Source: Candidatus Bathyarchaeota archaeon
GTDB lineage: Archaea; Thermoproteota; Bathyarchaeia; Bathyarchaeales; Bathyarchaeaceae
Assembly: GCA_020344715.1 (NCBI GenBank)
Contig: CP070828.1
Span: forward strand, 83,938 to 94,818
Reading direction: 5' to 3'
DNA length: 10,881 bases
A model generated the notes under the pieces. The model was not told where the DNA came from. It saw nothing but the letters and a program-made list of their open reading frames with translations, and searched no databases. Each line of letters begins with the position of its first letter. The first letter of the stretch is position 1. A program made the translations under genes and the position numbers. This document shows positions 2-10,815 of this stretch, in pieces.

Positions 2-1168
2 GTGGAGGAACTTGCAAGCAGATTAAAAGATGATCTCATAGAAAACGCAAGACGCGCTTTGAACGAATTTGATGGTGCCTACGCTTTTGCTATTTCCCAT
101 TCCGATAGGATAATTGCCGCACGTGACATGCACGGGTTGGTTCCAATGTACTACGGCGAAAACAGAAGGACCTGTGGCGTTGCTTCCGAACGCAAGGCAT
201 TGTGGGCGCTTGGAATGAGAAAGGTGAAATCGTTTCCTCCTGGAAACGTTGCTGCGATAAACAAGCGAGGCTTCGCCTTCGAAAGAGTAGCTACGATAGA
301 GCAGCCTCAAACTAAATCAATAGACATGGAAGTCGCCATCAACCATCTGAGAGAACTCCTTTTGGAATCAACAATAGATAGAGTTGGAGACAGCGAAAAA
401 GTGGCTGTAGCCTTTTCCGGCGGTCTGGATAGTTCGGTCATTGCTGCTTTGGCAAAAGTGATCGGAGTTGACGTTCGTCTAATTTCCGTAGGACTGGAAA
501 ATCAGTCGGAGCTTCAACACGCAGAAAAGGCAAGTAGGGCTTTAGAGCTTCCTATTCAGGTTCAGACACATGACTTAGGCAGCGTCAAGGAAGTTGTTTC
601 CAAAGCGTTGTGGTTAATTGAGGACCCGAACCTGATGAAGGTTGGAATTGCAATCCCCTTCTTCTGGACAGCGGAGATCGCTCATAGAATTGGATGCCGT
701 GTTCTCTTAGCTGGACAAGGGAGCGACGAGCTTTTCGGCGGTTATCAAAGATATCTGCGTGAACTTCAACGGAAAGGTCCGGAAGCCTTGCGAGAAATTC
801 TGTTTCAAGACGTTGTTTCATCGTATAAAACAAACTTTCAAAGAGACTATCCGATCTGCGCCTACCATAAAGTTGAGCTGCGTTTGCCGTTCATAGATCG
901 CGAAGTGATGAGCTTTGCGCTTGGCTTGCCGCTCGAACTGAAAATAGAATCTACCGATGATTTGCTTCGGAAGAGGATACTGAGAAGGGTGGCTGCAAAC
1001 CTGAAGATACCTGACTTCATCGCAGATCGTCCAAAGAAGGCGATTCAGTACGCGACTGGAACCGACAAAGCGCTCAGGAAGATTGCGAGATCGGAAGGTT
1101 TAACCGTTCGCGACTATCTTAACAAGCTTTCCTCCAAGATGTATCCAGAGTTGGAAGCATCGCCATGA
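2..1168 (+). CDS. asnB: Asparagine synthetase (glutamine-hydrolysing), 5' end outside window
   Basis: Predicted to convert aspartate, ATP and glutamine to asparagine in the cytosol. The first ~95 visible residues are the end of the class II glutamine amidotransferase domain (DGAYAFAI at 24-31, RDMHGLVPMYYG at 41-52, ASERKAL at 61-67). The catalytic N-terminal Cys and roughly 85 residues should lie before the window, so the GTG at position 2 is probably not the start. The synthetase domain has the ATP-pyrophosphatase P-loop SGGLDSS (139-145), GQGSDELFGGY (238-248), ELRLPFID (292-299) and RPKKAIQYATG (343-353), all typical of AsnB. The stop overlaps the next start as ATGA, which implies co-translation with the deacetylase. 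A related AsnB-like amidotransferase acting on another carboxylate is possible, but the motifs favour asparagine synthetase. Confidence 0.88.
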   Translation: MEELASRLKDDLIENARRALNEFDGAYAFAISHSDRIIAARDMHGLVPMYYGENRRTCGVASERKALWALGMRKVKSFPPGNVAAINKRGFAFERVATIEQPQTKSIDMEVAINHLRELLLESTIDRVGDSEKVAVAFSGGLDSSVIAALAKVIGVDVRLISVGLENQSELQHAEKASRALELPIQVQTHDLGSVKEVVSKALWLIEDPNLMKVGIAIPFFWTAEIAHRIGCRVLLAGQGSDELFGGYQRYLRELQRKGPEALREILFQDVVSSYKTNFQRDYPICAYHKVELRLPFIDREVMSFALGLPLELKIESTDDLLRKRILRRVAANLKIPDFIADRPKKAIQYATGTDKALRKIARSEGLTVRDYLNKLSSKMYPELEASP

Positions 1169-1803
1169 GCACAGCGATCCTCTTTACACCTAGATATTTG
1201 GAACACGACACAGGGAAAGGTCATCCAGAATCTCCTACCCGTCTGCGGGTCATAATGGACGAGCTGGAGAGAAGCGGGCTTCTCAAAGTTGGAAGGTGCT
1301 CAATTGTCGAGCCTGAACCGGCTCGGATCGAGGATGTGGAGCTTGTCCACGATTCTGAATATGTCGACCTTGTCAAGCGTGTATGCGAGTCGGGAGGGGG
1401 TCTGCTCGACCTCAGCGACACAGTGGTGAGCCCTAAAAGTTTCGAAGTAGCGCTTTTGGCTGTTGGAGGAGCAGTTGGAGCAGTTAGGCTTGTTGCAGAA
1501 AAAAAATTCCAGAACGCCTTCGCACTTGTTCGACCGCCTGGTCATCACGCAGGTCGCTACTACGCGTTGGGTTTCTGCGTCTTCAACAATGTTGCTGTGG
1601 CAGCCGAATACCTCATTCGCTACCTGGGTCTGAAACGCATCTTAATTCTAGACGTTGATTCGCATCATGGAAATGGAACGCAGGAAATCTTCTACAACAC
1701 AAACAAGGTACTCTACTTCGGTTTACATGAAGACCCGCGAGGCTTTCCAGGAACAGGCTTCGTGATGAAGTGGGTGAGCTGGAAGGACAAGGATACACGG
1801 TGA
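1165..1803 (+). CDS. HDAC-family deacetylase, N-terminal part (frame broken)
   Basis: N-terminal two thirds of a zinc-dependent arginase/deacetylase-fold amidohydrolase, the family of histone deacetylases, AcuC and acetylpolyamine amidohydrolases. It would remove acetyl groups from lysine-like amines. Visible motifs are HPESPTRL (20-27), the active-site His pair in RPPGHHA (123-129), and DVDSHHGNGT (163-172) with the zinc ligands Asp165 and His167. After FPGTGF (194-199) the reading frame leaves the family and ends at 1803 with residues that do not fit. The next base frame, from 1764, continues the family as DEVGELEGQGYTVNIPLP. One base appears to be missing around 1762-1763. Restoring it gives a protein of about 356 residues, normal for the family. 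The ATG start overlaps the asnB stop by 4 bases. Either the gene is recently inactivated or the base call is wrong; all catalytic motifs are intact. Confidence 0.85.
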   Translation: MSTAILFTPRYLEHDTGKGHPESPTRLRVIMDELERSGLLKVGRCSIVEPEPARIEDVELVHDSEYVDLVKRVCESGGGLLDLSDTVVSPKSFEVALLAVGGAVGAVRLVAEKKFQNAFALVRPPGHHAGRYYALGFCVFNNVAVAAEYLIRYLGLKRILILDVDSHHGNGTQEIFYNTNKVLYFGLHEDPRGFPGTGFVMKWVSWKDKDTR

Positions 1804-2234
1804 ACATACCATTGCCATTCCGAACATCAGACAGAGCTTACCTGAAAGCCTTTGATCAGATAGTTACTCCAATAGCTCAACAATACAAACCGGAGTTTAT
1901 TCTGGTCTCAGCAGGATTTGATGGATTCTACCCAGATCCAGTTGGGTCACTCTCGCTTTCTGCCCATATCTACACAGAAATCTACTCCAGGACTCTCAAC
2001 CTGTCATCTCAATTCTGCAATGGAAGACTAGTGGCAATTCTAGAGGGCGGATATCATCTTGAGACTCTAGGCAGATTAGTAAGCAGTGCGATTGCAAGAT
2101 TGGCAAACATTTCTTATACCACCGAGAGCAAGCGCAGTTTGCATCGTTCTGCACGGCTTGAGAGAAAGGCCGAACGGATCATAAACGAAGTTAAACGCGT
2201 TCAATCTTCATTTTGGAGCCTCAAAGATTCTTAA
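1770..2234 (+). CDS. HDAC-family deacetylase, C-terminal part (continues the frame-broken gene)
   Basis: This is the remaining third of the deacetylase begun at 1165, one base out of frame with it. The GTG at 1770 is used only as the first possible start codon; true homology runs from about 1764. It carries GYTVNIPLP (8-16), the third zinc ligand in SAGFD (Asp51), and the catalytic-Tyr motif EGGY (92-95). Together with the upstream part it therefore holds a complete HDAC active site. A basic helical tail of about 35 residues (from 120) follows. No ribosome binding site supports independent translation, and alone this piece could not fold into the deacetylase domain. The most likely reading is one gene, 1165-2234, with a single-base deletion or sequencing error. 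Confidence 0.8.
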   Translation: MGELEGQGYTVNIPLPFRTSDRAYLKAFDQIVTPIAQQYKPEFILVSAGFDGFYPDPVGSLSLSAHIYTEIYSRTLNLSSQFCNGRLVAILEGGYHLETLGRLVSSAIARLANISYTTESKRSLHRSARLERKAERIINEVKRVQSSFWSLKDS

Positions 2235-2479: not shown

Positions 2480-4315
2480 CTAGGCGATTTCCTCTCTGAG
2501 TCTCAAGAGCACGCCGTCAATTGCGGTTTTGGACCGCTCTCTCCTTCGATAATTATCTTCAAGCAACTTGTGATAGACAGCTGTGGATATTTCGCCCCGT
2601 CTATATCTTGTTTCCGTTCGGCGAATGCCTGCTTCGATCCCCTCCAGTTCTGCCTCAGCAATCTCGATTCGCCGCATCATATCGGCATATTTCGGGCTAG
2701 CCGTCTGCAGTTTCTCTCTGAGTTGAGCGAGGTCTTTGGATAAAACTGAAAGGCGGCTTTCCAATGCTTTCTTTCTCATTTTATAGCGACGTCGTGGAAT
2801 CTTCCGTTTTCGGGTCTTTTCATCTAACGCTTCAAGTTCGCTAGCGTTCCGTCTTTTCTGTTCATAGGCATCGACATACCTCTTCAGTTCTTCCGGTCTT
2901 ACTAGAATGGTTGGAATAGGAGCTGCAGGTCGAGGGGCACGCCAAAAGAGAGCCAAAACGCTCAAAACAACTGCAGCTGTACCTGCCCATAAAGTCGGGC
3001 GGAAAGAAGCCCAGAAAACAGCGTGTTCATAGGCAGCTTCTAAAGAAAGAGATTGAAACGGTGTGACGTTATAGTATGAGAAGGTCAAGATTTCTTGGAA
3101 AGCACTGTTTTGCACCACACCAGAATCTGAAGGAGATACAAATCGGGCACCTTCGGGCAGTGTCAGGGTTACAACAAGCTTTCTTGTTGCCCAGTTGAGG
3201 TTTTCCAATGAGACCAGCGTAATATGATAGGTTTGCCAGTCATTTTGCTCAATAACGCCTTCCCATGGAACCCGATAGGTTAATTCAAACCTTGCTGACT
3301 CATTCTGGGCGTATGGACTACTGAAAGCTAAAGTGACATTTGTCGGTGTGGTCGCATTTCCCGGTTCGATTCTTAGATTCTGCTCCTTGAAAGGGCGTTC
3401 AAACGCGTCCCACGCTGTCACTTCATATCCGCCTCGAAACAATTGTACAGTCAGCTCGGAAAGCCTTCCGGCTTTTGAAGTTATTTCGTAGGAGTCAGAC
3501 AGACGAAGGTATCTTGCGCTTTCAATCGTGATGGCTCGCTTGATATTCTTCGCCTCAATGACCAGAAAGCTCTCACCGCGTCCTTCAAATTCAAGCCATG
3601 ATGGCTTATAAGCAAATGATTCTAGGTTGTTTTTCGTGTGATTGAAGAATTGTAGATCCGCTATTGTCTTGTTTGTGAACTCAATGCCCTCGTCTTCAAA
3701 TGAACTGCTTGAGAATTTGACACTGCTTGGAAAAACAATTGTCAGGTTAACTACTGAAGCCTCTTGAGTCAAGCTTGGATAGGCTGGAAAGGTGGCGTTG
3801 GACGTTATCCACTCCACTCCAGGCTCTGGCTCAAAGGGAGAAATACTCGATGATACAAGATCCGAAAATACGAATACAACCGTAAAGTCGTAATGCTCTC
3901 CGTTGCTTATCTTTATCACTTGCGGAAAATCTATCTCAACTCCATAGAACCCGATTTTTCCTAAACCAACGTCAGACTTCACATCCAATTGTTGATTCGA
4001 AGAGTCATAGGCGAAAACATCATTGAGACCGGACTGGTAAATGAAGGGAAATCCTAGGTTGAAGCTTTCGAATTCAAGCTCTTCGCCTTTCGCATACATC
4101 TTGACAGTATCGTTTATGACTGTTAATCCGCCGTTTCGAATCTGTACAGTGTGGTCTACTTGGATATCTAGCGAGTCTGATGTAATTGCTGTGGCCTGGA
4201 CACTGGCAGGACCGCAAGCGATAAAGGCAGTAGTAAGAGCCGCAATAACGAACAAGATGAGAAGATGGAGACGCTGGTTTCTCACCAAGCTGAACACCAC
4301 ATTGAGTGCAATCAT
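2480..4315 (-). CDS. Ribophorin I (OST1)-like single-span membrane protein
   Basis: Predicted 611-residue cell-surface membrane protein. It has a signal peptide with a hydrophobic core at 16-34, ending IACG; Cys34 could be a lipobox, otherwise cleavage after VQA. A beta-rich ectodomain (about 43-437) carries eight N-x-S/T sequons (173, 190, 215, 225, 320, 326, 339, 416). One membrane helix (441-458) is followed by a charged, helical cytosolic tail (474-611). Human ribophorin I has the same plan: 607 residues, about 410 luminal, one helix, about 150 cytosolic. Recalled RPN1 matches include LTLPEGARF against IILPEGAKN about 50 residues before the helix, AYPSLTQ against PYPTKTQ, KKALES against KKSLET in the tail, and an ungapped final stretch with Tyr and Ile-Asp aligned. 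In eukaryotes this subunit belongs to the oligosaccharyltransferase beside STT3 and its tail contacts the ribosome; a similar role here is inference. I chose ATG 4315 over 4360 because it gives a normal signal peptide and TATA-like sequences lie just upstream. Confidence 0.75.
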   Translation of the reverse strand: MIALNVVFSLVRNQRLHLLILFVIAALTTAFIACGPASVQATAITSDSLDIQVDHTVQIRNGGLTVINDTVKMYAKGEELEFESFNLGFPFIYQSGLNDVFAYDSSNQQLDVKSDVGLGKIGFYGVEIDFPQVIKISNGEHYDFTVVFVFSDLVSSSISPFEPEPGVEWITSNATFPAYPSLTQEASVVNLTIVFPSSVKFSSSSFEDEGIEFTNKTIADLQFFNHTKNNLESFAYKPSWLEFEGRGESFLVIEAKNIKRAITIESARYLRLSDSYEITSKAGRLSELTVQLFRGGYEVTAWDAFERPFKEQNLRIEPGNATTPTNVTLAFSSPYAQNESARFELTYRVPWEGVIEQNDWQTYHITLVSLENLNWATRKLVVTLTLPEGARFVSPSDSGVVQNSAFQEILTFSYYNVTPFQSLSLEAAYEHAVFWASFRPTLWAGTAAVVLSVLALFWRAPRPAAPIPTILVRPEELKRYVDAYEQKRRNASELEALDEKTRKRKIPRRRYKMRKKALESRLSVLSKDLAQLREKLQTASPKYADMMRRIEIAEAELEGIEAGIRRTETRYRRGEISTAVYHKLLEDNYRRRERSKTAIDGVLLRLREEIA

Positions 4316-4333
4316 CCGAAATTTGCTTGCGTA

Positions 4334-4356
4334 TCTATTATGGTTTACCCTTATAA
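4334..4356 (-). promoter_or_regulatory. Candidate TATA boxes for the ribophorin-like gene
   Basis: Read on the minus strand, GGTTATAAGG (around 4353) and CCATAATAGATAC (around 4339) both resemble archaeal TATA boxes. Initiation about 25 bases downstream would fall 0-15 bases before ATG 4315, a short or absent leader. This fits the lack of a Shine-Dalgarno sequence there. It also places the promoter inside the longer reading frame that starts at 4360, which argues against that start. The rest of 4361-4500 is the divergent intergenic region shared with the iron-sulfur protein gene. Confidence 0.4.
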
Positions 4357-4500
4357 CCATTAGTTTTTCAGGTGTAACCCTTCACTGCGCGCGCGATATC
4401 TCCCAAGAACCTTCTCCCCGCAAGGGTCCCTCTTCTCCGACTAGTACTCGAGTAGCAAACTTCTTCAAGTACGCTTTTCACAGATGATGAGTGAATCGGA

Positions 4501-5405: not shown

Positions 5406-5750
5406 TCAACCTAATCCACGTTTTGAATAGTAGTCTTCTTCTTTCTTGGACCCAAAACTTCGTATGCCCTTTTCCTTGATCTGCTTTCTTAGTCTCTTTG
5501 CACGTTCGGGATCGATTTCTTTTCGCTTCTCCAGATACCTGATTATTTCCTCTGTTTGTTGCTTGTTGTCGCAACGGCGAATAAAATCAACTACATCTGG
5601 CTTGTAACTAGCGAACCTTTTGGAGGAGGTTTTTTCAGCGTCTTCAACTTCGGAGCGGACCGAGGAAATTACAACTCGTTGCTGCGTCTTTTCCATTTCG
5701 TTGACCAAGCTGGGAAACATCTTCTTGAGCTCTTTCTTGTCAATCTCCAT
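5406..5750 (-). CDS. DUF2095-like conserved archaeal protein, function unknown
   Basis: A small, highly charged cytosolic protein of 114 residues. It looks like the archaeal family DUF2095, which I recognise by an opening such as MEIDKKELKKMFPSL, a central YKPDVVDFIRRC, and an ending in which LRKQIKEKGIRSFGSKKEEDYY closely follows a YLEKR helix. No catalytic motif, signal or membrane segment is visible; it appears mostly helical, with a basic C-terminus. I chose ATG 5750 because the family begins near this Met and AAGGAGG lies upstream at 5770-5764 (spacing 13, a little long). The alternative ATG at 5795 adds 15 low-complexity residues and has no ribosome binding site, though a weak TATA-like TTAAGTAA at 5838-5831 could serve either start. 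It lies downstream of the nucleotidyltransferase and eS1 genes on the same strand, so a translation-related role is only a guess. Confidence 0.75.
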   Translation of the reverse strand: MEIDKKELKKMFPSLVNEMEKTQQRVVISSVRSEVEDAEKTSSKRFASYKPDVVDFIRRCDNKQQTEEIIRYLEKRKEIDPERAKRLRKQIKEKGIRSFGSKKEEDYYSKRGLG

Positions 5751-5891
5751 GTTGTTCTGCCTGCCTCCTTGAAACCCAGCAGCAGCAATGTTCATTCAGA
5801 GTGTAGCCAACTCTATTTGTGAGACAACAATTACTTAACCGTTGACCCGCGAAGCAGTTTGCCGCAATGCAAGAACACGATTTGCCGAAGT

Positions 5892-6565: not shown

Positions 6566-7156
6566 CTATCCAGCCGTCGGAGGTTGAGCCACTAGTCTAG
6601 ACTTTCGGATGCCAACGTGACGCAAAGGCGCGATTTTCTTTGCATCATTGTAGACATCAGACGCGATTTTTCCAAGCACTACCTCTTGCACAAACTGGTC
6701 GAAAGTCAACACCGCCGCTTTCTCTTGAAGAACCCGTCTCATGATCATCCGCAGAACTCGTTCCTGAGTGGTTTTTGTTCGCGTCAAAGTGAAAGCACAC
6801 ACAGCAACTCGCAGTTTGTAGCCATCTTTGGTTGCGACGTCGAGAATCTGATCCACCGTAGTTGTTCTTCTTCTAACAAGGCTTCTCAAATAATCTCGCG
6901 AGTACTCGTGTCCCTTAAAGATCGTGTGCGCTTTTTTGCCTTCCACCGCAAGAATTTGAAAATACATCTTTAGGTACTGATGAGTAAAGTCATTGGTCAA
7001 ATCATAAAGCGTCGCATCCATAATTCTACCAACCAACTTTTCCGGATCATCAGTCGGAATCGAGCCTAACTCGGTATTGCCGAAATAGGGCGGCGACGTC
7101 ACTGCATACCAGTCTTTACTTCGCCATTTGTCACGCACACGCCTTTTGGAAGACAA
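6566..7156 (-). CDS. rps3ae: 30S ribosomal protein eS1 (S3Ae)
   Basis: Small-subunit ribosomal protein shared by archaea and eukaryotes, located near the mRNA exit of the 30S platform. Family blocks run through the whole protein: RVRDKWRSKDWY near the start, DDPEKLVGR, TLYDLTNDF, FKGHEYSRDYLRSLVRRRT, DGYKLRV, KAAVLTFDQFVQEVVLGKIAS, and a basic ending IRKSRLVAQPP. The TTG at 7156 is taken as the start. It gives 196 residues beginning MSSKRRVRDKW, as in other archaeal eS1 proteins, and has GGAGG six bases upstream. The longer frame from ATG 7189 adds 11 residues that do not fit the family, lacks a ribosome binding site, and would begin upstream of the start site expected from the TATA-like box at 7194-7202. 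The gene therefore has its own promoter downstream of serS. Confidence 0.95.
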   Translation of the reverse strand: MSSKRRVRDKWRSKDWYAVTSPPYFGNTELGSIPTDDPEKLVGRIMDATLYDLTNDFTHQYLKMYFQILAVEGKKAHTIFKGHEYSRDYLRSLVRRRTTTVDQILDVATKDGYKLRVAVCAFTLTRTKTTQERVLRMIMRRVLQEKAAVLTFDQFVQEVVLGKIASDVYNDAKKIAPLRHVGIRKSRLVAQPPTAG

Positions 7157-7162
7157 GAGGAA

Positions 7163-7167
7163 CCTCC
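7163..7167 (-). promoter_or_regulatory. Ribosome binding site deciding the eS1 TTG start
   Basis: GGAGG with a six-base spacer to TTG 7156. No comparable site precedes the in-frame ATG at 7189. Confidence 0.6.
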
Positions 7168-7193
7168 ATTGTGACGGAGAAATTAGCATAGAA

Positions 7194-7202
7194 GTATTAA
7201 AA
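7194..7202 (-). promoter_or_regulatory. TATA box of the eS1 gene
   Basis: TTTTAATAC on the minus strand, preceded by ATAAACC as a possible TFB-recognition element. Transcription should begin about 25 bases on, near 7172. That leaves a 16-base leader containing the GGAGG at 7167-7163 ahead of TTG 7156. The geometry supports both the promoter call and the short start of eS1. Confidence 0.6.
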
Positions 7203-7244
7203 GGTTTATCGTTTCAGACTAGCTCAAGGAAGCTTTTTGTCATC

Positions 7245-7303
7245 ACCCAGATAGTTGCAGTGCAACCTAGTTGCAAATAGGTTTACAACTGGTTCATCTG
7301 GGT
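7245..7303 (-). repeat. Nested inverted repeat at the 3' end of serS
   Basis: The outer arms pair ACCCAGAT+AGTTG (7245-7257) with CAACT+ATCTGGGT (7286-7290 and 7296-7303): 13 base pairs with a five-base bulge. Inside the loop, TGCAAC-CTA-GTTGCA (7261-7275) forms a perfect six-pair hairpin with a three-base loop. The upstream arm in the serS transcript contains the stop codon. No T-run follows, so this is not a classic intrinsic terminator. It may protect the transcript end, mark processing, or separate serS from the eS1 promoter 40 bases further on. Confidence 0.5.
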
Positions 7304-8580
7304 CGTATTCTTTCGGTTCCCTTCATATATGTCCGCAGAACTTCAGGAATTACTACCGAGCCGTCTTTCTGCTGGTAGTTTCCTAGAATTGCCACCATTG
7401 TTCTTCCTGTGGCTAGGGCTGTTGAGTTAAGGGTGTGAACAAAACCTTTTGTCGGGGCGCCTTCTTTTTCTCTATATTTTATGTTTAATCTTCGCGCTTG
7501 GTAGTCTGTGCAGTTGCTGCAAGAGATTATTTCGCGGTATTTGTTTTGCGCCGGCATCCAAGTTTCAATGTCGTATTTCTTTGCAGCTACTGTTCCGATG
7601 TCGCCAGTGCAGACATTGACGACTTGATGTGGCAGACCGAGTTTCTGAACCAGTTCCTCGGCATTTCCTATTAGTTCTTCATGCATGGTCCATGAATCTT
7701 CAGGCGTGCATAGAATGAACTGCTCAACCTTGTTGAATTGGTGAGTTCTAAATATTCCTCGTGTGTCTTTTCCATGGGCGCCAGCCTCTTTTCTGAAGTT
7801 TGCACTGATTCCGACGTATTTTAGTGGCAGGTCTTGGGCGTCGAGAACTTCATCCATAAACATTGCTGCTATTGGATGTTCAGACGTGGCTATCAAATAG
7901 AGATCTTCGTCTTGAACCTTGTACAGCATTTCTTCAAAATCGCTTAGGGCAGTTACACCCTCGTAGGGTCTTCGCCTCATCATGAAGGGAGGCTCAATTG
8001 GGATGTATCCCTTCCTTACTAGCTCGTTGAGGGTAAATTCTATTAGCGCCAAGTCAAGCGAGACACCCTCGTTCTTCAAGTAGTAAAATCGCGCTCCTGA
8101 AACCTTGCTTGCCCTTTCAACATCCATTATGTCCAAGCCAACAGCTAAGTCAATATGATCCTTCACCGGAAAATCGAATCTCGGCATTTCTCCCCATTCT
8201 CGTATTGGAACATTGTCTTCTTCGCTTTCGCCAAGAGGCACCGACTCATGGAGAAGGTTGGGAAGCCTCATCAATATGTAATCAATCTTCTCCTTGTCTT
8301 CCTTCACGCTTTTCTCTACTTTCTCTATTTGCCGTTCAATTTCGCGTGCTTCCTTAATTTTTTGAGCAGTATCTTTGCCGGCTTTCTTTAACTCAGCAAT
8401 TTTGGCGTTTGCCAGGTTCATTTTATGTCTAAGCTCGTTTAGACCAGTCAGCTGTTCTCTCCATTTCTTGTCGTGTTGGATCAGCTCATCTAGCATTTCG
8501 AGCTTTTCGGGGTCTCTTCTCTTTTTCAGGTTTCCTTCAACGACATCTGGATGTTCTCGAATGAATCTGATGTCGAGCAT
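7294..8580 (-). CDS. serS: Seryl-tRNA synthetase, canonical class II
   Basis: Charges tRNA-Ser (and tRNA-Sec where present) with serine in the cytosol; 428 residues, the usual length. Residues 1-105 form the long antiparallel coiled-coil arm that reaches the tRNA variable arm, beginning MLDIRFIREHPDVV. The class II core follows, with the serine-binding TSE (232-234), motif 2 FRKEAGAHGKDTRGIFRTHQF (about 262-282), NKYREIISCSNCTDYQARR (346-364), and motif 3 ending GNYQQKDGSVVIPEVLR (400-416). This is the widespread SerRS, not the rare zinc-dependent methanogen form. ATG 8580 is the standard family start; only a weak AAGG precedes it. The gene begins 72 bases after the Pcc1 stop. That gap holds TATA-like sequences (TTTAAAGTA, CGTATAGA), so it may be read both from the uS15 transcript and from its own promoter. 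Confidence 0.97.
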   Translation of the reverse strand: MLDIRFIREHPDVVEGNLKKRRDPEKLEMLDELIQHDKKWREQLTGLNELRHKMNLANAKIAELKKAGKDTAQKIKEAREIERQIEKVEKSVKEDKEKIDYILMRLPNLLHESVPLGESEEDNVPIREWGEMPRFDFPVKDHIDLAVGLDIMDVERASKVSGARFYYLKNEGVSLDLALIEFTLNELVRKGYIPIEPPFMMRRRPYEGVTALSDFEEMLYKVQDEDLYLIATSEHPIAAMFMDEVLDAQDLPLKYVGISANFRKEAGAHGKDTRGIFRTHQFNKVEQFILCTPEDSWTMHEELIGNAEELVQKLGLPHQVVNVCTGDIGTVAAKKYDIETWMPAQNKYREIISCSNCTDYQARRLNIKYREKEGAPTKGFVHTLNSTALATGRTMVAILGNYQQKDGSVVIPEVLRTYMKGTERIRPR

Positions 8581-8652
8581 GTTTGACGCCTTGGATAGTT
8601 CATGGAACTCTATTGTGTAATCTATACGTAGTGAATCTACAAATAGGATACT

Positions 8653-8913
8653 TTAAATTATTCGCAGTTTCTTGTCTTTCACGGTGGAAAAGGCTTTTTC
8701 AGCAACCGAAACACATGCTAGAAGGTCATCTATTGTTGAGATGAAGGTTTGTAGTCGGGTCTTACAGTCTATCTGAGTGAGCACTTCGTTTTTTTTCCTT
8801 GTTGTTCTTACATATAAGCCAGGTGGTACTTTTGCGTTGTCAGGTGAAACCGCATCCGCAACGGCCTCTGCTTCCTCTACAACTCTATACGTAAGAATGA
8901 TTTCAGCCTTCAA
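8653..8913 (-). CDS. pcc1: KEOPS complex subunit Pcc1
   Basis: Small dimer-forming subunit of KEOPS (Kae1-Bud32-Cgi121-Pcc1), the complex that makes N6-threonylcarbamoyladenosine at position 37 of ANN-decoding tRNAs. The 86-residue product has the family pattern: beta-strand KAEIILTY, helix EAEAVADAVSPDN, then VPPGLYVRT, and a C-terminal helix TFISTIDDLLACVSVAEKA. The frame is open up to ATG 8943, but TTG 8913 is the better start. It has GGAGGGG at 8927-8921 with a seven-base spacer, it gives the usual Pcc1 N-terminus directly on the first strand, and it cuts the overlap with the upstream nuclease gene from 41 to 11 bases. That overlap implies translational coupling to the nuclease. No other KEOPS gene lies in the window. 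Confidence 0.9.
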   Translation of the reverse strand: MKAEIILTYRVVEEAEAVADAVSPDNAKVPPGLYVRTTRKKNEVLTQIDCKTRLQTFISTIDDLLACVSVAEKAFSTVKDKKLRII

Positions 8914-10366
8914 TCGGCTTCCCCTCCAGTTGTTGCTTGACAAGTCTATTTACAAGTTTAATGAACGCATCGACGTTCTTGACCGGCACCTGCGCACCAG
9001 CTGCGATATTATGTCCTCCGCCTCTGCACGAGTATTTCTCAGCCGCAATCTTCAAGATTTCACCCAGGTTTAACCCTTTTTCTACAAGCAGGTCGATCGT
9101 TCTGGCTGAAAATTTCGCGAATTCCTCCCCTTGAATAGCTGAATATGCTATCAGAGGTTTCTCAAGGTTGGGTATGTTGGTTGACAGAAGAGACGATATG
9201 GTTCCAATCATCTTGTCGTCGATCATCCCTTGACCGTGCGCTACGTATATGTTGGTCAACTCTTCTATGCGTCCGGGTTTCTCAGTTAGCCAGCTGAGGT
9301 ACTTCGTAATTGTTCTCCGATATTCATCTAGCACTTTACCAGCTTCTTCTAGTGCGGCGCTCCTATCTCCCATGCAGATGGAGACTCCCACACCGGCTCT
9401 GCCCATCCGTCCGGTGGAGTTAAGCAAAACGGAAAACTCTCGGGCATCTCTAAGCGGCGTCCAAGGTTCTTCATGGCTCAGCGTGTAAACACGCCCAATC
9501 AAATTCAGTGCAATATTACCGGAAAGCCCCTTTGAAGCGAAATGATCTGCCAAAGCTGAACATAGCTTCTTTTTCTCTTCTTCTGAAAGATCTCGTAGCA
9601 CACGCCATCGGTCTCCCTTTTTAGGGGTTATCCCTATTCGCGCCAGAAAAGCTACGCTTCGGTCTTCCTGACCGCTCAGGTCGGGAATAAAAGGAACAGT
9701 TGTATAGGCTAACGCCTTGTGGATGGGGCGAGTTTCTCTGCCAAAAAGCATAAGGTCGGTTTCAGTTTGAAGGTTCCCTGCAGTCTCCGCGTCTTCAACT
9801 ATTATTTCGTTGGCTCCTCCAAGTGCCCTTGATTCGTATTTGTCTTGCATGTCTCCAAGAGCCCCTATGACTGCGATTTGAGCTAGATCGATGTTGACCT
9901 CGTTGAGAGCCTTGGCCACAAGATATGCTACTCCAGCACCGCTAAGATCTCGCGAGCCGTCTATTCCGTGAAGGTGAGGATTAACGTGAACGAATTCTGG
10001 ATTGGCCTCTTCTGTAGTTTGATGATGGTCCAGTATGATCAGGTGGTTGTCAGCAAGCTGAGCGTTCAATATGTCGAGGTTGCCACTTCCAAGATCTGTA
10101 AAAACGGTCAGCGCTGGTTTGTCTGCAGCAATGCTGTCTATATTTTTCTCATCGAGCCATCTCTCAATTCGAATGCGAAAAGACGCACCTAATCTCGCAA
10201 GAGCTTTTCCGACTATACCAGCTCCAGCTAAGCCATCTGCGTCCAAGTGCGAAACAACATGAACCAACTTGTGGCTTTCCACGGTTTCGAGAATCAGATC
10301 TGCAGCTTGTTTGGCGCTGTTATGAAGAGAGTCAAACTGCTCCTTACTAACGGCCTCATCAGGCAT
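8903..10366 (-). CDS. Archaeal RecJ-like DHH nuclease (GAN type)
   Basis: Predicted Mn-dependent single-strand exonuclease of the DHH/DHHA1 superfamily, 487 residues. Archaeal members include GAN, which binds GINS in the replisome and is related to eukaryotic Cdc45. The DHH domain is intact: HLDADG (40-45; Asp42, Asp44), FTDLGSG (Asp91), LDHHQ (Asp113, His114, His115) and GALGD (Asp172). The C-terminal DHHA1 domain has the substrate-binding CRGGGH (447-452). All metal ligands are present, so it should be active, unlike Cdc45. A role in Okazaki-fragment, repair or RNA processing is known for relatives, but I cannot tell which applies. ATG 10366 follows the uS15 stop by 8 bases, and the gene's end overlaps Pcc1, placing it in the middle of one operon. 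The uS15-RecJ neighbourhood recurs in archaea as I recall. Confidence 0.93.
   Translation of the reverse strand: MPDEAVSKEQFDSLHNSAKQAADLILETVESHKLVHVVSHLDADGLAGAGIVGKALARLGASFRIRIERWLDEKNIDSIAADKPALTVFTDLGSGNLDILNAQLADNHLIILDHHQTTEEANPEFVHVNPHLHGIDGSRDLSGAGVAYLVAKALNEVNIDLAQIAVIGALGDMQDKYESRALGGANEIIVEDAETAGNLQTETDLMLFGRETRPIHKALAYTTVPFIPDLSGQEDRSVAFLARIGITPKKGDRWRVLRDLSEEEKKKLCSALADHFASKGLSGNIALNLIGRVYTLSHEEPWTPLRDAREFSVLLNSTGRMGRAGVGVSICMGDRSAALEEAGKVLDEYRRTITKYLSWLTEKPGRIEELTNIYVAHGQGMIDDKMIGTISSLLSTNIPNLEKPLIAYSAIQGEEFAKFSARTIDLLVEKGLNLGEILKIAAEKYSCRGGGHNIAAGAQVPVKNVDAFIKLVNRLVKQQLEGKPIEG
8921..8927 (-). promoter_or_regulatory. Ribosome binding site deciding the Pcc1 TTG start
   Basis: GGAGGGG lies inside the last codons of the nuclease gene, seven bases before TTG 8913. 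Nothing comparable precedes the in-frame ATG at 8943. Confidence 0.6.
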
Positions 10367-10374
10367 GAAAAACC

Positions 10375-10815
10375 CTATTTGATGAATGCTGTTCGAGCTT
10401 CATATTCCCAATCGGGTGGAAGTATGTTTTCTCGTTTGTAATATCGTGAAAGCTTGTAAATTTTTGATTCGATAAGTTGAAGCGCCCGTTTGTTTGGCAG
10501 ATCTTTCTTGTTCTTCTCAAGATGAACATAAAGGCGACCCGCCTTCTTCAACAAGCTTTCTAGGTCTTCCGGCAGAGAAGGAACAAGTTCAGCATCTCTT
10601 AGGATTTGCGTTATCGTCTTTCCCATAATGGGCTTGACTAGGGGTATGCCGTATTGGTCGCGAAGGATCGTTCCTATTTTGCTGGGATTGTGACCTTCCT
10701 TGGCAAATTTGATCACTAATGCCTCCACTTCTTCGGTGGTGTACCTACACCATGCAGGCGGTCTTTTGCTTACAGGTCGGATTGAGTGGGATGTTCCTTT
10801 TTCGGTTTTTGGCAA
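10375..10815 (-). CDS. rps15: 30S ribosomal protein uS15
   Basis: Small-subunit protein binding 16S rRNA helices in the central domain. At 146 residues it is the long archaeal/eukaryotic form: an N-terminal extension with RPPAWCRYTTEEVEALVIKF (18-37), then GHNPSKIGTILRDQYGIP and KTITQILRD, before the common four-helix core ending SKIYKLSRYYK and LPPDWEYE. The start is TTG 10815, seven bases after GGAGG (10827-10823). It gives the usual N-terminus, and no ATG precedes it in a sensible position. It is the first gene of the uS15-GAN-Pcc1(-SerRS) transcript, behind a strong TATA box. Confidence 0.96.
   Translation of the reverse strand: MPKTEKGTSHSIRPVSKRPPAWCRYTTEEVEALVIKFAKEGHNPSKIGTILRDQYGIPLVKPIMGKTITQILRDAELVPSLPEDLESLLKKAGRLYVHLEKNKKDLPNKRALQLIESKIYKLSRYYKRENILPPDWEYEARTAFIK

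Follow-up and report, generated by a model that had tools for sequence, protein, structure and literature searches.

A bathyarchaeal homologue of ribophorin I (OST1) with a four-helix cytosolic tail and an OSTC-like candidate partner

The window analyzed here, a stretch of 10,881 nucleotides from a Candidatus Bathyarchaeota archaeon (assembly GCA_020344715.1, contig CP070828.1, positions 83,938 to 94,818), carries on its minus strand a gene which virtually certainly encodes a homologue of RPN1 (ribophorin I)/OST1 with the same fold, RPN1 being the component of the human protein-glycosylation machinery that contacts the ribosome. Judged by its sequence and those of its relatives, the product is very likely to be a subunit of an oligosaccharyltransferase (OST). 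The reading favored here, with a probability of roughly 0.8, is that it represents the bathyarchaeal OST1, a membrane subunit of OST working according to the model described below. The original prediction, made from the letters of the window, had proposed a full-length ribophorin I homologue, and this proposal is confirmed by the collinear profile match and the fold matches that follow.

Homology is displayed most clearly at the level of sequence profiles, of which A1 (40 rows) contains close relatives of the window protein only, A2 (31 rows, 575 positions) combines such relatives with Asgard and other archaeal members, and A4 holds TACK rows and no Asgard rows. Profile A2 matched human RPN1 with E = 4.6e-32, collinear over nearly the entire length in two stretches, positions 15-249 aligning to RPN1 residues 8-254 and positions 251-570 to residues 275-607. 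Matches were likewise obtained with A4 (7.3e-28 against human RPN1 and 2.5e-14 against yeast Ost1) and with A1 (7.6e-6 against human RPN1), while the single window protein reached E = 2.2e-7 in a phmmer search of the PDB. The tail aligned to that of OST1 from Prometheoarchaeum MK-D1 with 33.3 bits, the top score of 1000 shuffles being 12.5. Regarding the short motifs which the original prediction had given as shared with RPN1, Y-x-(V/L)-P (residue 362) and LTLPEGARF (399-407) stand in exact register in the multiple alignment, whereas AYPSLTQ/PYPTKTQ and SFLVI/PFLTI occur in the right neighborhood but out of register by about five and three residues, respectively. The window protein alone gave no match to PF04597 (ribophorin I) at E ≤ 1, and no Pfam family was matched above cut-off. 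Since PF04597 was reached at E ≤ 0.01 by only part of the profile rows (29/40 in A1, 19/31 in A2), this family falls short of bathyarchaeal OST1; a PF04597 scan of the whole genome was uninformative, returning nothing there or in 14 controls.

An AlphaFold model built from 40 sequences (mean predicted local distance difference test score 84.0, predicted template modelling score 0.61) was compared with solved structures, and the eight top-ranking Foldseek matches were all chains from OST entries, human or yeast. The modelled ectodomain and membrane helix fold as in solved RPN1/Ost1, the five matches that cover these parts having a root-mean-square deviation of 4.6-5.7 Å. The deviation was 16-21 Å in the three matches that extend into the tail, so that the position of ectodomain and tail relative to each other is uncertain in the model. 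The tail itself is modelled as a cytosolic four-helix bundle of the ribosome-binding OST1 type, with helices between residues 489 and 625, and matches by fold the ribosome-binding domain of an Asgard OST1 (8WHN). That the gene encodes an unrelated surface protein, of beta-sandwich fold with a coiled-coil tail and merely resembling RPN1, is hardly credible and is judged refuted by the Foldseek and 8WHN matches together with the A2 match to RPN1. Compared with human RPN1 and yeast Ost1, which belong to OST subcomplex I, the window protein has the same near-full-length collinearity, beta-rich ectodomain and single membrane helix, and the tail bundle is also present in human RPN1; it differs in the low identity of the structural alignments (10-14%) and in its presumed location in an archaeal cell membrane, without an endoplasmic reticulum (ER). 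With the OST1 of Prometheoarchaeum MK-D1 it shares a similar length and the tail fold, whereas identity to three Prometheoarchaeum proteins is about 16% over the alignment and the Asgard form, unlike the window protein, groups with eukaryotes.

The predicted order of signal peptide, ectodomain, one membrane helix and cytosolic tail was recovered by hydropathy and the AlphaFold model (Table 1). The architecture is of OST1 type, with a signal peptide recognized by hydropathy only, beta-rich outside domains of about 387 residues and one membrane helix. The tail is basic, 25 positions being basic in at least 90% of the A1 rows. In the list of open reading frames (ORFs) of the window, the frame extends from 2480 to 4360 (626 codons) and is open up to an ATG at 4360. 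The predicted total of 611 residues is correct for the ATG at 4315; nonetheless, a GTG at 4300 is the likely start, giving 606 residues, because the closest relative (P0001, 606 residues, 94% identical) begins at the equivalent position.

Bit scores against human RPN1 (137 for an Asgard-only profile, 100.5 for TACK only and 27.6 for close relatives only) are confounded by the diversity of the alignments, and descent was therefore considered by means of a tree. This tree comprises 68 rows; its root is unknown, its two eukaryotic rows are incomplete, eleven end branches are long and 35 rows are of unusual letter composition. In it, the window OST1 forms a group (99/96) with 13 further rows from its class, while the two eukaryotic rows join 32 Asgard rows (97/99), their place among these not being resolved. 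Two divergent rows of the same class fall outside its main group. The neighborhood of the gene is kept within the class: of 42 loci with about 1.5 kb of flanking sequence, its own included, 31 contain the DUF2095 gene and 30 the deacetylase gene. Both the tree place and the gene neighbors fit vertical descent of OST1 within the class. Horizontal transfer of the gene from an Asgard or eukaryotic donor is accordingly given very little credence, as is a contaminated bin: no supporting evidence was found, the window protein is separated in the tree from the 34 rows of Asgard and eukaryotic origin, and its gene neighbors are common to relatives. The preferred reading of these sequences is that OST1 would predate Asgard and that eukaryotes would carry the Asgard form.

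Occurrence was determined in two sets of genomes. Among 31 near relatives (the own genome and 30 others, 16 of them near-complete), OST1 was found in 27 genomes and in all 16 that are near-complete. In a phylum set of 299 genomes (66 of the own class, own genome included, and 233 outside it), OST1 was counted at A2 E ≤ 1e-10, a cut chosen here, and was present in 124 genomes, namely 58 of the 66 in the class and 66 of the 233 outside; at 1e-3, 182 genomes match. This count replaced a first one of 74/299; profile A1 had overlooked OST1 in two of three Prometheoarchaeum genomes. The Asgard phylum was covered with 99 genomes, of which 98 matched A2 at 1e-3 and 90 at E ≤ 1e-30. The 58 of 182 genomes with a best E above 1e-10 were not counted as having OST1. 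Among the 16 of these weak matches listed, 15 are ORFs of 100-283 residues aligning only from about A2 position 445, the coiled-coil part; CdvA chains also turn up in the A2 search of the PDB. Three weak matches in a family with other strong ones (G172, G192 and G228) may be real OST1, and another (G239, 547 residues) may be a real but divergent one. Three loci of family f20 in the same phylum (L068, L071 and L074) encode an OST1 of 416-430 residues, which has a membrane helix and no four-helix tail.

A second protein enlarges this picture. Outside the window, the same genome encodes a membrane protein of 142 residues (G000:C1:342925-343353) that matches the C-terminal part of PF04756 at 2.7e-5, below the Pfam cut-off. 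A profile of six such sequences (A6; a seventh considered, L066, was omitted because its first-M ORF is only a piece) matched human OSTC/DC2 in the PDB at 9.9e-11 and a second OSTC sequence at 8.2e-10. No Ost3, Ost6, MAGT1 or TUSC3 chain was among the five matches at E ≤ 1, the library containing 6ezn, 7oci and 6s7t, which should hold such chains. In this PDB search, the small protein thus matches OSTC better than OST3/6; like human OSTC/DC2, to which it is distant, it has about 140-150 residues with membrane segments. The alternative that it is a truncated Ost3/Ost6 and not of OSTC/DC2 type, so that the comparison with the human OST-A complex fails, is unlikely but carries some weight: the match is to the C-terminal half of a family named OST3/OST6 and A6 includes only six sequences, while the ranking of PDB chains speaks against it. 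N-terminal matches to PF04756, including G000:C1:491154-491411, were taken for ordinary thioredoxins, since controls such as E. coli match too.

The OSTC-like gene was detected in 30 of the 31 near relatives (one partial at a contig end), in all 16 near-complete ones, in 121/299 genomes of the phylum and in 66/66 of the class. Outside the class, 45 genomes hold OST1 together with the OSTC-like gene, 21 OST1 only, 10 OSTC only and 157 neither (Fisher p 2.6e-22, kinship not corrected). The catalytic subunit STT3 (PF02516) was found in 23/31 near relatives and in 15 of the 16 near-complete, with the OSTC-like gene at most 10 kb away in 10 of the 23 STT3-positive genomes. At locus L052, STT3 is absent among ORFs of at least 90 residues; G001, of the same genus, has STT3 elsewhere (L062). 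The neighbors at L052, identified by eye, are PAC2-, GcvT-, topoisomerase- and CarS-like, an arrangement which we take to be that around STT3 in other families. OST48/Wbp1 (PF03345) was found in 0/31 genomes, and also in 0/14 controls. With OST1 accompanied in the genomes by an OSTC/DC2-like protein, Bathyarchaeia hold a minimal OST-A-like set. Mammalian DC2, as described in an excerpt of PMC7226087, is a subunit of OST-A and connects this complex with the translocon; in an excerpt of PMC12338589, "OSTC" is used for the whole complex. The OST3/6 reported in TACK archaea, according to an excerpt of PMC11417166, may be this OSTC-like protein.

In the proposed model, OST1 would sit in the cell membrane beside STT3/AglB, its outside domains would hold or release nascent chains during their glycosylation, its inside four-helix tail would dock the translating ribosome, and the OSTC-like protein would tie the assembly to the SecYE channel. 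From STT3 contact, ribosome docking and channel contact, which we infer for the bathyarchaeal proteins, it would follow that these archaea, having no ER, couple N-glycosylation to secretion in the manner of human OST-A. To our knowledge, the Asgard OST1 tail is the closest relative of the window tail with a published ribosome test. Docking of ribosomes by the window tail is probable in view of its modelled fold and by analogy with the MK-D1 tail, which pulls down human ribosomes (PMC11417166, in excerpt).

Several results weigh against this reading. Matches to PF02516 are lacking (0) in the own genome, a draft rated 64.6% complete and joined across gaps, and STT3 is also without a match in G024 (locus L061, G024:C44), which is rated 100% complete and has OST1 and the OSTC-like gene. 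Eight of the 66 class genomes have an OSTC-like gene and no OST1 match. In all seven f20 genomes with a strong match, the alignment stops at A2 position 430-448 of 575, so that the tail is not indispensable to OST1. Furthermore, PMC4973528 (2016), in the part available, reported no promising archaeal homologues of non-catalytic OST subunits. The missing STT3 would suit a genuine descendant of OST1 which has lost its part in glycosylation, such as a tether between ribosome and membrane or an AglB-independent protein associated with the S-layer, and the excerpted text of PMC8993221 states that the role in N-glycosylation of the Asgard subunits is still to be shown. Such a loss of function is nevertheless improbable, given the STT3 match in 15 and OST1 with the OSTC-like gene in all 16 of the near-complete relatives, the co-occurrence of the OST1 and OSTC-like genes, and the incompleteness and gaps of the own genome. 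The predicted position of the gene, alone and not beside STT3, is uninformative, because runs of 100 N at both ends make the window one assembly contig.

The features of the window are collected in Table 1. Each end of the window (1 and 10881) borders on a run of exactly 100 N, the single-contig genome being a gap-joined draft, and all three stretches of it that were looked at hold such runs. The deacetylase gene is split, its two parts covering profile positions 1-187 and then 190-296; the frameshift could be a sequencing error.

Table 1. Coordinates of OST1, its parts and neighboring genes in the window
Feature	Position	Strand	Basis or remark
OST1/ribophorin I homologue	2480..4300	-	likely 606-residue product; homology by sequence, profile and fold
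Signal-peptide-like N-terminus, residues 21 to ~57, hydrophobic core 31-49	4190..4300	-	hydropathy only
Ectodomain, residues 61-447, beta-rich, nine N-x-S/T sequons	3020..4180	-	AlphaFold model and fold matches
Single membrane helix, residues 448-474	2939..3019	-	hydropathy and AlphaFold model
Cytosolic tail, residues 486-626, four helices, 38 K/R versus 25 D/E	2483..2905	-	
Histone-deacetylase-family gene, two ORFs through frameshift near 1785	1165..2234	+	ORF list and Pfam
DUF2095 gene	5406..5795	-	Pfam; in 31/42 class OST1 loci
Translation cluster upstream of OST1, same strand: eS1, SerRS, Pcc1-like (below Pfam cut-off), DHH/DHHA1 protein, uS15	6566..10815	-	

Other forms of OST1 were encountered in the Asgard phylum. 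At L118, L119, L120 and L133-L149, OST1 is extended at its N-terminus by about 440 residues, or by about 690 in L120, while L146 is cut by a contig end. All 20 OST1 ORFs of at least 820 residues in the 99 Asgard genomes match FKBP_C (best 1.9e-11), with a bacterial Ig domain in 11, DOMON in 3 and PF04597 at E ≤ 0.01 in 7; by these domain matches, the extended form is predicted to fuse a secreted prolyl isomerase to ribophorin I. With the extension of L119, a phmmer search of the PDB returned nothing at E ≤ 0.01, and nothing on such a fusion was found in the literature search. At L121, L122 and L123 a further form occurs, which measures about 700-730 residues and has a longer ectodomain.

The bathyarchaeal OST1 itself is a further member of a known family, since OST1 in TACK is already in print: excerpts of PMC11417166 place OST1 and OST3/6 in eukaryotes, TACK and Asgard. 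In the excerpted text of PMC10307638, Asgard archaea are named as prokaryotes having Ost1 and Ost3, and ribophorin is listed among Asgard eukaryotic-signature proteins in that of PMC8813620. In the partial texts reached by the literature search, no description of a bathyarchaeal OST1 gene was found, nor, in the search on OSTC in archaea, the pairing of OST1 with an OSTC-like protein. A wider proposal, which is tentative and somewhat less likely to hold than to fail, is that Bathyarchaeia run a minimal OST-A composed of STT3, an OST1 with a ribosome-docking tail and an OSTC/DC2-type subunit on the Sec channel. If so, N-glycosylation that is co-translational and docked at the translocon would be older than both Asgard and the ER, and at least as old as the ancestor shared by TACK and Asgard. 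OST1 is usual in one class outside Asgard, where it occurs with its tail and with an OSTC-like partner in the genome. The question of how glycosylation became coupled to translocation, hitherto one of the ER, would thereby become testable in archaea that have no ER, for which the lineages with a tail-less OST1 provide a natural comparison.
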